Below the pieces are notes generated by a model. The model had not been told where the DNA came from. It ran no database searches and worked only from the letters and a program-made list of their open reading frames with translations. Shown one piece after another: positions 37,153 through 50,397 of a stretch of DNA of 64,000 nt. The stretch comes from Rhodopseudomonas pentothenatexigens (lineage in GTDB: Bacteria; Pseudomonadota; Alphaproteobacteria; Rhizobiales; Xanthobacteraceae): the NCBI RefSeq assembly GCF_900218015.1, contig NZ_UFQQ01000011.1:65786-129785 (forward strand), written 5' to 3'. The position numbers were made by a program, and so were the translations under genes. Position 1 is the stretch's first letter. Each line of letters starts with the position of its first letter.

Positions 37153-37177
37153 GGAACCACGCTGCTGTTCCGCGGTT
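37153..37177 (+). promoter_or_regulatory. EcfG-type general-stress promoter before ino1
   Basis: The plus strand reads GGAAC, 16 bases, GGTT, 57 bp upstream of the ino1 ATG at 37235. It is the first promoter candidate of the glycoconjugate cluster. Confidence 0.68.
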
Positions 37178-37234
37178 CGCCCCTCGCGCTACGGCCGGCG
37201 TTCCGCGCCGCCACACCCTGGAGGGCGATCATCG

Positions 37235-38329
37235 ATGCATTCACGTCTGCAAGATGGTCGACGAGTCCGCGTCGGGCTCGTCGGCGTCGGCAATTGTGCG
37301 AGCGCCCTGGTGCAAGGACTGTCGTACTATCGGGATGCACAATCCAACGAGCCGGTGCCCGGCCTGATGAACGTGGATCTCGGCGGCTACCACGTCAGCG
37401 ACATCGAGATCGCTTCGGCGTTCGATATCCATGCCGGCAAGGTCGGCCGCGACGTCGCCGACGCGATCTGGATCAAGCCGAACAACACCCAACGCTTCGC
37501 CGCCGTGCCGGCCACCGGCGCGGTCGTCGCGCGCGGGCCCGCGCTCGACGGTGTCGGCCGCTACACCACCGACGATGTGCCGATCTCCGACGAGCCCGAG
37601 GCCGACGTGGTCGACGTGCTGATGAAATCGCGCACCGATGTTCTGGTTTCCTATCTGCCCGTCGGCGCGCAGCGCGCGTCGGAGTGGTACGCGGAGCGCG
37701 CGCTCGATGCCGGCTGCGCCTTCGTCAACTGCATCCCGGTGTTCATCGCGTCCGATCCGGCATGGCGCAGCCGGTTCGAACGCGCCGGGCTGCCGATCGT
37801 CGGCGACGACATCAAGAGCCAGGTCGGCGCCACCATCATCCACCGCATGCTGGCCAATCTGTTTCGCGATCGCGGCGTCCAGCTCAATCGCACCTATCAG
37901 CTCAATGTCGGCGGTAATACCGACTTCAAGAACATGCTGGAGCGCGAGCGCCTCGCCTCCAAGAAGATCTCCAAGACCCAGGCCGTCACCAGCCAGCTCG
38001 AGGTGCCGCTCGATGCCGACGACGTCCATGTCGGGCCGAGCGACTTCGTGCCGTGGCTGACCGATCGCAAGCTCGCCTATATCCGGCTCGAAGGCACCGC
38101 CTTCGGCGGCGTTCCGCTCAGCGCCGAACTCAAGCTCGAAGTCTGGGACTCGCCGAACTCCGCCGGCGTGGTGATCGACGCGGTGCGCTGCGCCAAGCTG
38201 GCGATGGACCGCGGCATCGGCGGCGCGCTGATCGGGCCGTCGAGCTATTTCATGAAGTCGCCGCCGCGGCAGTTCACCGACGACGAGGCGCGCCGCGCCA
38301 CGATCGACTTCATCGAAGGCAAAGCTTGA
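37235..38329 (+). CDS. ino1: Myo-inositol-1-phosphate synthase
   Basis: The protein is 364 residues from the ATG at 37235 with GGAGG 7 bases upstream. It converts glucose-6-phosphate to inositol-1-phosphate. Signatures are the NAD-binding [17 protein letters not shown], the WIKPNNTQR region, [16 protein letters not shown] [13 protein letters not shown] and the substrate-binding [17 protein letters not shown] and [12 protein letters not shown]. The length fits the bacterial/archaeal short form rather than the eukaryotic one. This enzyme is uncommon in Proteobacteria. It opens the co-directional cluster to 49.8 kb and has an EcfG promoter. Confidence 0.9.
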
Positions 38330-38336
38330 CTCCGCG

Positions 38337-38930
38337 ATGGTGAAGCGGGTGCACCTGGTTCGCCACGGGCATCACGGCCAGCTCGGCAGGCTGTGCGGCC
38401 GGATGTCGGGCGTGGCGCTGGACGACCTCGGCCAGGCGCAGATGCGCGCCTGCGCCGCCGTGCTGGCGCCCGCACCGGATCTGATCGAGTCGTCGCCGCG
38501 GCTGCGGACGCGGCAGTCGGCGCTGTTCCTCGCAGCGCATTTCCGCCTGCCGGTGCGGACCGTCGCCGCGTTCGACGAACTCGATGTCGGCGACTGGACC
38601 GGCTCCAGCTTCGAGCAGCTGGACAGCGATCCGCGCTGGCGGCAGTGGAATGCCCGGCGCGGCAGCACCCGTCCGCCGCGGGGCGAAAGCATGGCCGAGT
38701 TGCAGCGACGCGTGGTGCAGCATCTCGAGACGCTGCGCCGCGACGGCAGCGACAGCGTCGTGGCGATCGTCAGCCATGCCGAACCGATCCGTGCCGCACT
38801 GCTCCACTATGCCGGCGTGTCGGTCGATGACTTCTCGGCCGTCCCGGTCGAGCCGGCCAGCATCAGCACGCTGGCGACCAGTCACGACGGCTTCCTGATC
38901 GAGCAGATCAACCGCCAAGTGCCGCTGTGA
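38337..38930 (+). CDS. Histidine-phosphatase-family protein
   Basis: The protein is 197 residues. The phosphoglycerate-mutase-like catalytic core is clear: phospho-His in HLVRHGHHG, Arg in SSPRLRTRQSA, and the second His in VAIVSHAEPIRAAL. The start is 7 bases after the ino1 stop, so the two are co-transcribed. Removing the phosphate of inositol-1-phosphate, or of a related sugar phosphate, would be a fitting role beside ino1. That is inference from position; the family has many substrates. Confidence 0.85.
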   Translation: MVKRVHLVRHGHHGQLGRLCGRMSGVALDDLGQAQMRACAAVLAPAPDLIESSPRLRTRQSALFLAAHFRLPVRTVAAFDELDVGDWTGSSFEQLDSDPRWRQWNARRGSTRPPRGESMAELQRRVVQHLETLRRDGSDSVVAIVSHAEPIRAALLHYAGVSVDDFSAVPVEPASISTLATSHDGFLIEQINRQVPL

Positions 38931-47631: not shown

Positions 47632-48770
47632 CGCTCAACATCGTATTCATCGGGCTATCGGTCACCTCGTCGTGGGGCAACGGACACGCCACCACCTATC
47701 GCGCGCTGATCGCCGCACTGGCGCGCCAGGGCCATCGCGTCACCTTTCTCGAGCGCGACGTTCCCTGGTATCGCGAGCATCGGGATCTCGCCGATCCGGC
47801 CGACTGGACCGTCGAACTCTACGAGACGCTCCCCGATTTGCCGAGCAGATACGCCGCGCTGGTGCGCGACGCGCATCTGGTCGTGGTCGGCTCCTACGTG
47901 CCCGACGGCCTCGCGATCGCCGACTGGGTCACCGCGACCGCGCAGGGCGTCACCGCGTTCTACGACATCGACACGCCGGTAACGCTGGCCGGGCTCGATC
48001 GCGGCCTGCCCTATTTGTCGGCCGCGATGATTCCGCGCCTCGATCTGTATCTGTCGTTCTCCGGCGGACCGATCCCGGCGTCGATCGAGCGCGACTACGG
48101 CAGCCCGATGGCGCGGGAGCTCTACTGCAGCGCCGATCTCGATCTGTACAGGCCGCAGCACTGCCCGCCGCGCTGGTCGCTCGGCTATCTCGGCACCTAT
48201 AGCGACGACCGGCAGCCGCTGCTCGACGACCTGCTGATCGCCCCGGCCAAGGCGCTCACGGAAGACTCCTTCATCGTCGCGGGCGCGCAATATCCGGCGA
48301 GCATCCGTTGGCCCGGCAATGTCGAGCGCATCGAACATCTGCCGCCGCGCGCCCATGCCGAGTTCTACGCCGCGCAGCGCTTCACCCTCAACGTCACCAG
48401 GTCCGACATGCGGGCGCTGGGCTATTCGCCGAGCGTCCGGCTGTTCGAAGCCGCGGCCTGCGGCGTGCCAGTGATCTCCGACACGTGGCCCGGCATCGAG
48501 ACGCTGTTCAAGCCGGACAGCGAAATCCTGATCGCGTCCGATCCGCGTGACGTGATCGGCATGCTGCGCGAGATGTCGGACGACCAGCGCCTGACGATCG
48601 GAGATCGGGCGCGCCGGCGGATTCTCGCCGAGCACACCCCGGACCATCGCGCCCGGCAGCTGGCGGCCTACTACGCCGAGGCCGCGGCGCGCCGCCGGCA
48701 GGCACCACGGCGGCCCGCCGCCGAGCCTGCCGAGGGCGCCGACAGCTACGCCATCCGAGCCGCGGAGTGA
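47628..48770 (+). CDS. CgeB-like glycosyltransferase (third of three)
   Basis: The protein is 380 residues and overlaps the upstream copy by 4 bp. It shows [56 protein letters not shown] and the donor site [20 protein letters not shown]. The last 35 residues are Arg/Ala/Pro-rich and probably disordered. Three tandem paralogues of one transferase type suggest successive addition of related sugars. Confidence 0.83.
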
Positions 48771-48781
48771 ATGGAGCCGCC

Positions 48782-49843
48782 ATGACCATCCAGTATCGCA
48801 ACGGACACAGCACCCGCCGCCACCACCGCATCGTCGTCACCGGCGGCGCCGGCTTCATCGGATCGCATCTGTGCGACTCGCTGCTGCAGCGCGGCGAGAC
48901 GGTGATCTGCCTCGACAACCTGTTCACAGGGTCGATGCGCAACGTCCGGCCGCTGCTCAACCATCCCAATTTCACCTTCGTCGAGCACGATGTCCGCGAA
49001 CCGATCGAGATCTCCGGCGAGATCGATCGCATCTTCAACCTCGCCTGCCCGGCCTCGCCGCGACACTACCAGCGCGATCCGATCGGCACGATGAAGACCT
49101 GCGTGCTCGGCACGCTCAACGTGCTGGAGCTCGCCCGCGCCAAGGGCGCGCGCGTGCTGCAGGCCTCCACCAGCGAAATCTACGGCGATCCGGAGGTGCA
49201 CCCGCAGCCGGAATCCTACGTCGGCCACGTCAACGCCACCGGTCCCCGCGCCTGCTACGACGAAGGCAAGCGCGCGGCCGAAACCCTGATGTTCGATTTT
49301 CATCGGCTCTACGGCACCGAGATCAAGGTGGCGCGGATCTTCAACACCTACGGGCCGCGAATGCTGGAGAACGACGGCCGTGTCGTCTCCAATTTCATCG
49401 TTCAGGCGCTGCGGGGCGAAGCCATCACCATCTACGGCAGCGGCGCCCAGACCCGCAGCTTCTGCTTCATCGCCGATCTGGTGCGCGGCCTGGAATCGCT
49501 GATGGAGAGTCCGGCCACGGTCACCGGCCCGTGCAACCTGGGCAACCCGCACGAAGTCACCATCGAGGCCATCGCCCGCGAGATCCTGGCGCATACCGGC
49601 TCGCAGTCGGGGCTGCAATTCGAGCCGTTGCCGGTCGACGATCCGAAGCGGCGGAAGCCGGCGATCGACACCGCGCTGGAAACGCTCGGCTGGCGGCCGA
49701 ACGTGTCGCTGCAGGATGGCCTGCGCGCCACCATCGCCTATTTTGCGCTCCGCACCGCGACCTCGGAGCTCAAGGAGAGCACCCCATCGGCCAAGCCGCG
49801 CCGCTCGGCGCGCAGCCAGCTGTCACTGGCCAGCGGCTCTTGA
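48782..49843 (+). CDS. UDP-glucuronate decarboxylase (UDP-xylose synthase)-like
   Basis: The protein is 353 residues from the ATG at 48782 (GGAG 6 bases upstream). It matches UXS-type enzymes closely: [67 protein letters not shown] for the catalytic pair, and [20 protein letters not shown]. This enzyme makes UDP-xylose from UDP-glucuronate. With the xylosidase-like protein upstream it points to pentose in the cluster product. The C-terminal 30 residues are a polar extension. Confidence 0.87.
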
Positions 49844-49878
49844 CCGGCGACGCGGCCGTGACCCGCCCGAGCGCTTGA

Positions 49879-50397
49879 GTGGACGAGCCCGACCGCCCGC
49901 GCGACGAGACATCCGCCAACCTCAGCTCGACGCTGCGTCGGAACATCGCCGCGCTGCGCCGGCTGCGGCGGGAGGAAGCGAGCTCGATCGATGTCCAGGA
50001 CAAGATCGCCAACGCGATCACCGCCTTCGCCGGCAGCATGCGGTTCGTTTATCTGCATCTGGCGATCTACGGCAGCTGGATCGTCGTCAACACGGTACCG
50101 GGCCTGCCGCATTTCGATCCGTCCTACGTGATGCTGGCGATGGCCGCCTCGGTGGAGGCGATCTTTCTGTCGACCTTCGTGCTGATCAGCCAGAACCGCG
50201 CGATGGCCACGACCGACAAGCGCGACGACCTCGACCTGCACATCAATCTGCTGGCCGAGCACGAGCTGACGACGCTGATCAAGCTGGTGACGGCGATCGC
50301 CGACAAGCTCGAGGTCGACCACGAGATCGCGGACGAACTGCCTGAAGTCACCAAGGACGTCGCGCCCGAAGACGTGCTGCGCGAAATCAGGAAATAG
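49879..50397 (+). CDS. DUF1003 membrane protein
   Basis: The protein is 172 residues from the GTG at 49879. It has a helical N-terminal part, two membrane helices (FVYLHLAIYGSWIVVNTVPG, YVMLAMAASVEAIFLSTFVL) with the family motif AITAFAGSMRFVYLH, and a coiled C-terminal tail. DUF1003 proteins are common in stress and envelope contexts; the function is not known. It starts 35 bases after the UXS gene and is probably the last gene of the cluster. Confidence 0.82.
   Translation: MDEPDRPRDETSANLSSTLRRNIAALRRLRREEASSIDVQDKIANAITAFAGSMRFVYLHLAIYGSWIVVNTVPGLPHFDPSYVMLAMAASVEAIFLSTFVLISQNRAMATTDKRDDLDLHINLLAEHELTTLIKLVTAIADKLEVDHEIADELPEVTKDVAPEDVLREIRK

Follow-up and report, generated by a model that had tools for sequence, protein, structure and literature searches.

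What is made by the block of genes lying on one strand between positions 37153 and 50397 of a 64,000-nucleotide stretch of the Rhodopseudomonas pentothenatexigens genome (5.38 Mb; the whole stretch is called the window below), and which step belongs to its predicted B12-binding radical S-adenosylmethionine (SAM) enzyme of family TIGR04295? The answer that we favor, at slightly better than even confidence, is a probably stress-regulated glycoside cluster in which the radical SAM enzyme of some lineages and a pair of dehydrogenases of others would perform an equivalent step. The central observation is an exchange of genes: some loci without a radical SAM match in the stretch compared carried instead a Zn-binding dehydrogenase adjoining an oxidoreductase of the Gfo/Idh/MocA family. 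Such loci were found in Sinorhizobium, Rhizobium, Allorhizobium, Ensifer, Roseomonas, Paracoccus, Sphingobium and Xanthomonas, with the S. meliloti version located on pSymB (NC_003078, matches at ~242-258 kb in strain 1021), and in Xanthomonas the pair was placed between SDR2 and GT4, i.e., exactly where the radical SAM gene is found elsewhere. The genes of the window, assigned to two modules, are the following:

37153-37177, plus strand: EcfG-type promoter motif GGAAC-N16-GGTT, 82 bp upstream of the ino1 start
37235-38329, plus strand: ino1, inositol-3-phosphate synthase, module B (PF01658, E 5.5e-35; sole match in the genome)
38337-38930, plus strand: histidine phosphatase, module B (PF00300, E 8.3e-39)
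38970-39734, plus strand: TIGR04290 family methyltransferase, module B (387.6 bits, cut-off 300)
39731-40666, plus strand: circularly permuted GH39/PslG-like glycosidase, module B (likely catalytic Glu10 in WNEPN and Glu112 in WVTEVG)
40667-40847, no strand: 181-bp gap between the modules (place of a phosphopentomutase gene in Bradyrhizobium relatives)
40848-41960, plus strand: SDR1, NAD-dependent sugar epimerase/dehydratase family, module A (PF01370; solved relatives)
41957-43021, plus strand: SDR2, CDP-tyvelose 2-epimerase-like, module A (9rl0 and 1orr, E ~1e-82)
43018-44304, plus strand: predicted B12-binding radical SAM enzyme, module A (TIGR04295, B12_rSAM_oligo; 729.9 bits, cut-off 400)
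44301-45422, plus strand: GT4 glycosyltransferase, module A (family search)
45419-46543, plus strand: CgeB-like glycosyltransferase 1, module A (PF13524)
46540-47631, plus strand: CgeB-like glycosyltransferase 2, module A (PF13524)
47628-48770, plus strand: CgeB-like glycosyltransferase 3, module A (PF13524)
48767-49843, plus strand: predicted UDP-glucuronate decarboxylase, UXS-type, module A in most relatives (human UXS1 2b69, E 6e-111)
49879-50397, plus strand: DUF1003 protein (PF06210; near 6 of 80 loci)

Among 91 loci with GT4, CgeB1 and CgeB2 matches (loci lacking any of the three were excluded and, in our locus numbering, L084 and L089 were omitted because they nearly duplicate L088), 81 carried only the radical SAM enzyme, 10 only the dehydrogenase pair and none carried both. 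Because most of these loci had been found by searching with one or the other enzyme, the genomes with the permuted glycosidase provided the fairer test of exclusivity. Of 249 genomes belonging to the order, 19 contained the glycosidase, 11 the radical SAM enzyme and 10 the Zn-dehydrogenase, and no genome contained both of the last two (0/249). The 19 glycosidase genomes were split into 10 with the radical SAM enzyme and 9 with the Zn-dehydrogenase, none having both or neither. In six of them (G342, G378, G440, G478, G496 and G515) the modules were found on different contigs or ~3 Mb apart, although in draft genomes separate contigs may still be neighbors. In a sample of the class (n = 289) the glycosidase was present in 6 genomes and the radical SAM enzyme in 13, including all 6, while the Zn-dehydrogenase search gave 0/289 without matching anything at all, so that it is uninformative alone; in a sample of the phylum the TIGR04295 cut-off was exceeded in 7 of 299 genomes. 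Plasmid records, which were counted without chromosomes, contained the Zn-dehydrogenase in 136 cases, none of them from Azospirillum, Bradyrhizobium or Tistrella, and the radical SAM enzyme (at least 60% identity) in 8 cases, all from these three genera. Of the 146 plasmid records obtained in the glycosidase search, 49 were below 60% identity, probably many of them carrying the unpermuted form fused to SDR2, and the count was not used for exclusivity.

The history of the exchange was followed on a tree of SDR2 and CgeB1-3 from 39 loci, chosen by hand and analyzed with a quick search. The tree needs five changes between the radical SAM and the dehydrogenase type, at least four of them required by branches whose support reaches 95, and a single clade for the dehydrogenase type was rejected (p-AU 5.3e-5). 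Since the type label was clustered on the tree, with 5 changes against ~9 expected by shuffling, the exchange was repeated but not frequent. An equivalent reaction offers the best explanation for replacements that recur while the surrounding gene set stays constant. Conserved motifs were seen in all 16 sequences compared for each protein, namely GVCxSN and GHE in the Zn-dehydrogenase and QKPL and GGGCxxDLGxHLxD in the Gfo protein; we take these to be motifs of the catalytic type. With one dehydrogenase oxidizing and the other reducing, the pair would achieve an epimerization or a formal rearrangement, and the radical SAM enzyme probably makes a comparable edit, either redox or stereochemical.

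The cysteines C210, C214 and C217 of the CxxxCxxC motif of the radical SAM enzyme were invariant in 43 sequences. The cobalamin-binding family PF02310 scored 27.2 bits, below its cut-off of 32.1, while the fold of the predicted model matched cobalamin-bound TsrM and OxsB. The enzyme was far from the HpnJ family (TIGR03471; 32.3 bits, cut-off 577.6). By sequence its only solved relative at E ≤ 0.001 was AprD4 (6fd2), crystallized with paromamine, and in Foldseek the model (mean pLDDT 88.5) matched TsrM first, followed by OxsB, MgmA and AprD4, with TokK and CysS lower. The latter ranking bears on a rather improbable alternative, according to which the enzyme is a methylcobalamin-dependent C-methyltransferase producing a branched sugar and the dehydrogenase pair introduces another decoration, resulting in two related products. 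The first hit, TsrM, is indeed a B12 radical SAM methyltransferase, MgmA, TokK and CysS followed lower, and many B12 radical SAM enzymes methylate; however, the four to five exchanges in a constant gene set, never with both types together, are more in line with an equivalent step, AprD4, the nearest solved relative by sequence, is not a methylase, and the TIGR04290 methyltransferase occurs with both types of the cluster. The enzyme also has a native run HHHHHHRF (window 43564-43596, residues 183-193) some 20 residues before the CxxxCxxC motif; H186, H190 and H191 were invariant in 43 relatives, and the run is a possible metal or cofactor site.

The twelve genes from ino1 to UXS (37235-49843) are all on one strand, followed by the DUF1003 gene, which is a stress-associated neighbor and not a part of the core. 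Eight of the 12 junctions are 4-bp overlaps and the remaining ones are gaps of 7, 39, 181 and 35 bp; reading frames without any family match were not counted as genes. This agrees with the first-pass annotation, which described a co-directional block mostly with 4-bp overlaps, and its families (ino1, His phosphatase, methyltransferase, B12 radical SAM, GT4, three CgeB-like transferases, UXS) were recovered in the Pfam, NCBIfam and solved-structure searches. Three names were sharpened: the "CmoB-like" methyltransferase belongs to the TIGR04290 family, the radical SAM enzyme to TIGR04295, and the "two epimerases" are both SDRs, with SDR2 more precisely similar to CDP-tyvelose 2-epimerase. The UXS assignment follows its homology to human UXS1, the best match among solved structures, and "CgeB-like" is the label that we adopt, as an assumption, for the Glyco_trans_1_2 family of the three transferases.

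A search with the radical SAM protein produced 136 related loci, the best 80 of which were kept for the gene counts, with presence called by set identity thresholds and several of the contigs being short. Module A was near-constant: SDR1 was found in 78, SDR2 in 77, GT4 in 80, CgeB1 and CgeB2 in 78 each, CgeB3 in 75 and UXS, often included, in 59 of these loci, and the gene order was the same across phyla. Module B was optional, with the methyltransferase in 59, the permuted glycosidase in 58 and ino1 and the His phosphatase in 55 each, yet it co-occurred with module A even when unlinked. Its position varied: in Bradyrhizobium it lies upstream and in Methylorubrum downstream, there on the same strand, while Belnapia and Azospirillum brasilense have a divergent arrangement and Chelatococcus a convergent one. 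The nearest locus among the relatives compared came from Rhodopseudomonas sp. AAP120. The single joint pathway proposed earlier stands as a biosynthetic unit for an oligosaccharide-like product but not as one fixed pathway, and the set, expected to be a unit across Rhizobiales, is not one unit in some relatives, even if its two modules co-occur far beyond chance.

Most Bradyrhizobium relatives have in addition a fourth CgeB-like transferase, a nucleotidyltransferase and a phosphopentomutase, which are absent from the window and from L002; a phosphopentomutase search of the window's own genome, made without a positive control, gave no match. Another accessory gene, L083:11293-13047 (minus strand), encodes a 584-amino acid protein without a Pfam or NCBIfam match but with a phosphoribosyltransferase-like motif by eye. 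It was also matched in L059, L072, L073, L084, L085, L088, L089, L117 and L121, and never shared a locus with the phosphopentomutase gene (88 loci).

The distribution of ino1 helps to place the inositol. Of the cluster-bearing genomes, 23 of the 24 that have the permuted glycosidase contained it (the exception being G147), but only one of the nine that do not (G071; Fisher p 6e-6 for the 33 genomes, relatedness ignored); it was also present in 5 of 36 comparison genomes in which neither the glycosidase nor the radical SAM enzyme nor the Zn-dehydrogenase had been found. Therefore, ino1 goes with the glycosidase rather than with the radical SAM gene. Because eight of the nine genomes that have module A but not the permuted glycosidase gave no ino1 match, the module apparently works without ino1, and inositol is probably not the radical SAM substrate. 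The same figures speak against a single pathway, in which inositol from ino1 would be both the radical SAM substrate and the head of the product; we consider it improbable, even though the Zn-dehydrogenase and Gfo proteins scored best with the inositol dehydrogenase models IolM and IolG (far below the cut-offs) and although ino1 and the radical SAM gene form one block on one strand both in the window and in Bradyrhizobium.

The glycosidase of module B proved to be a genuine circular permutation, as the first reading of the sequence had suggested, with its halves swapped in comparison with a PslG-like barrel. In the profile comparison residues 3-166 corresponded to PslG 132-303 and residues 197-295 to PslG 21-130, the latter piece being weak alone (8.4 bits). 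The clearer proof came from the SDR2 of Tistrella, whose N-terminal half is an unpermuted member of this family, its residues 121-297 and 15-114 corresponding to glycosidase residues 6-184 and 197-294, respectively. The glycosidase starts just before the WNEPN motif and its gene overlaps the methyltransferase gene by 4 bp. E10 and E112, invariant in 26 sequences and aligned with the glutamate motifs of PslG, suggest a retaining glycosidase of the clan GH-A type as the predicted activity, while the score with GH39 (PF01229) was only 11.3 bits (E 0.15; cut-off 26), outside the family limit. The predicted model was barrel-like (pLDDT 82.8), and its Foldseek matches were weak and mostly to generic barrels (TM ~0.2-0.4); a sequential structure aligner may give weak matches for a permuted chain, and these were not used as evidence. 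In the 91 loci the permuted form alone was found in 65, the normal form fused to SDR2 alone in 13 and both forms in one, so that the two are seldom found side by side. The unpermuted domain, on the N-terminal side of SDR2, was seen in L086 (13953-16001), L087, L114, L118, L119 and L120, and the Rhizobium loci examined have this fused form. The longer distance to SDR1 in Bradyrhizobium raised the idea of a truncated or internally deleted glycosidase in the window; it was rejected, since the same protein of 295-319 amino acids in the same order was present in the 57 relatives listed, and the extra Bradyrhizobium DNA before SDR1 is the separate phosphopentomutase gene and not a missing glycosidase part.

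In accordance with the earlier claim that export genes are absent, family searches revealed no Wzx/Wzy or ABC export gene among the 13 gene calls. The cluster is probably a stress-linked biosynthetic unit for an oligosaccharide-like product without a dedicated exporter, and the name of the TIGR04295 model also suggests an oligosaccharide. An unlikely alternative is a cell-surface polysaccharide or glycolipid relying on housekeeping export and ligation, as in the PslG-associated systems. The CgeB-like and GT4 transferases, the resemblance of the glycosidase to PslG and a pyruvyltransferase gene adjoining the Sinorhizobium, Ensifer and Paracoccus versions would suit such a product, but no Wzx/Wzy or conserved ABC exporter belongs to the 13 genes, and the ABC ATPase-like frames recognized by eye near 7 of 52 loci examined were in scattered places. 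In L084, L116 and L117 (Sinorhizobium, Paracoccus, Ensifer) genes for a polysaccharide pyruvyltransferase and an F420-hydrogenase beta-type protein adjoin the glycosidase or dehydrogenase genes. Bradyrhizose, an inositol-containing sugar of a Bradyrhizobium O-antigen, was considered as the product, an idea that the broad spread of the cluster speaks against.

The link to stress comes from the region upstream of ino1. The EcfG promoter consensus is GGAAC-N16/17-CGTT, so that the window motif, which had been described as an exact EcfG promoter, is in fact one base off and only near-consensus. A pattern requiring C or T at the deviating base misses the window site, while a relaxed pattern, which finds it, was present within 350 bp of ino1 in 44 of 55 relative loci (the window copy having GGTT) and near SDR1 in 16 of 75. 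In the S. meliloti version the relaxed pattern, never with CGTT, precedes all three units (dehydrogenase, SDR1 and ino1). The conservation of the motif before ino1, together with NepR encoded in the window's genome, makes a stress link probable, with the cluster likely belonging to the alphaproteobacterial general stress response; DUF1003, manganese catalase and Ku/LigD are stress-type neighbors in several relatives. The idea of the product as a "stress solute" is a guess. No sigma-70-like promoters were found in 36600-51200, where 1.2 were expected by chance, which is uninformative. No publication on the cluster, and none using the names of the TIGR04295 and TIGR04290 models, was found in the open-licence literature, and the cluster is not named in the available parts of PMC8877191, PMC5591287, PMC2912261, PMC10315480 and PMC3616915, the last of which contains supplementary tables of the RpoE2 regulon.

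Our inferences on the chemistry of the exchange, the sequence of steps, the product and its role are as follows. The cluster, probably controlled by the alphaproteobacterial general stress response, would make and edit a small glycoside of several sugars, including a pentose derived from UDP-glucuronate. Module A would build the core, with SDR1, SDR2 and UXS preparing nucleotide sugars and GT4 and the three CgeB-like enzymes assembling them. The B12 radical SAM enzyme may edit one hydroxyl-bearing carbon of a sugar or glycoside by epimerization, or by oxidation followed by reduction, the same edit being performed in other lineages by the Zn-dependent dehydrogenase and the Gfo/Idh oxidoreductase. 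Module B would add an inositol unit and a methyl group, as well as a dedicated glycosidase trimming or recycling the product.

Several points weigh against this explanation. The exchange could mean two different end products instead of one equivalent step. Among the structures best matched by the radical SAM model, AprD4 is outnumbered by others: TsrM, MgmA, TokK and CysS are methyltransferases and OxsB is a ring-contracting enzyme. The Xanthomonas dehydrogenase is unannotated and its frame runs over the start of the Gfo gene, leaving its integrity unsettled, and 12 of the 91 loci have neither form of the glycosidase. As for the stress link, 11 of the 55 ino1 loci (Methylorubrum, Methylobacterium, Belnapia and two Rhodospirillales assemblies) have no motif; the relaxed pattern is not rare, occurring 9 times in the window against 3.05 expected, so that the single window site is unremarkable alone and it is the conservation that is remarkable. 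Module A is also present in Acidobacteria, cyanobacteria and Xanthomonas, where, to our knowledge, EcfG control is not expected.

A chance neighborhood of unrelated stress genes, for which the recurrent DUF1003, manganese catalase and Ku/LigD might speak, has a negligible probability, being already contradicted by the constant order of module A across phyla and the 19/19 co-occurrence. A bolder version of the favored explanation seems doubtful as a whole: TIGR04295 would invert or redox-edit a sugar hydroxyl in one step, replacing a two-enzyme NAD couple with which it was exchanged several times, and the product, trimmed by a naturally permuted glycosidase, would represent a new class of alphaproteobacterial stress metabolites. 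Whatever the product, the repeated exchange with the Zn-dehydrogenase and Gfo/Idh pair limits the possible reactions of TIGR04295 and offers a practical handle on its function. Many bacteria of soil and plants carry the cluster, which is probably part of the general stress response, many targets of which have no known function. For the study of protein evolution, a barrel glycosidase that is naturally permuted and has an unpermuted counterpart within one pathway makes a useful case.

Elsewhere in the window, a bacteriophytochrome-type histidine kinase (PAS_2, GAF, PHY) is encoded at 55803-58085 (plus strand), a helicase resembling the transcription-repair coupling factor (UvrB interaction, helicase and TRCF domains) at 27533-30826 (minus strand), and, at 32981-34267 (minus strand), a protein whose DUF305 domain follows an N-terminal part looking membrane-bound by eye.

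Among known systems, a parallel to the exchange is the synthesis of 2-deoxystreptamine, in which, depending on the lineage, either the radical SAM enzyme BtrN or a Zn/NAD dehydrogenase performs the same oxidation; however, BtrN is not B12-dependent, and the exchange described here involves a pair, the Zn-dehydrogenase and the Gfo/Idh protein. AprD4, the radical SAM diol dehydratase of apramycin synthesis, acts on the glycoside paromamine and shares the fold class of the window enzyme, which nevertheless reached 28 of the 500 bits required for the AprD4 family NF033070 and falls outside it. PslG, the glycosidase of the Psl polysaccharide, is matched by the window glycosidase in both glutamate motifs and both barrel halves, but the latter has the halves swapped, is 311 amino acids long and shows no signal peptide by eye. 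The window ino1 scored best with the INO1 model of the mycothiol pathway (TIGR03450), although below its cut-off (527 against 638 bits), and the GT4 is not MshA (32.8 against 462.5). Finally, the window proteins exceed the curated cut-offs of both TIGR04295 and TIGR04290 (meth_Rta_06860), which are "hypoth_equivalog" models with no function assigned in the NCBIfam library.

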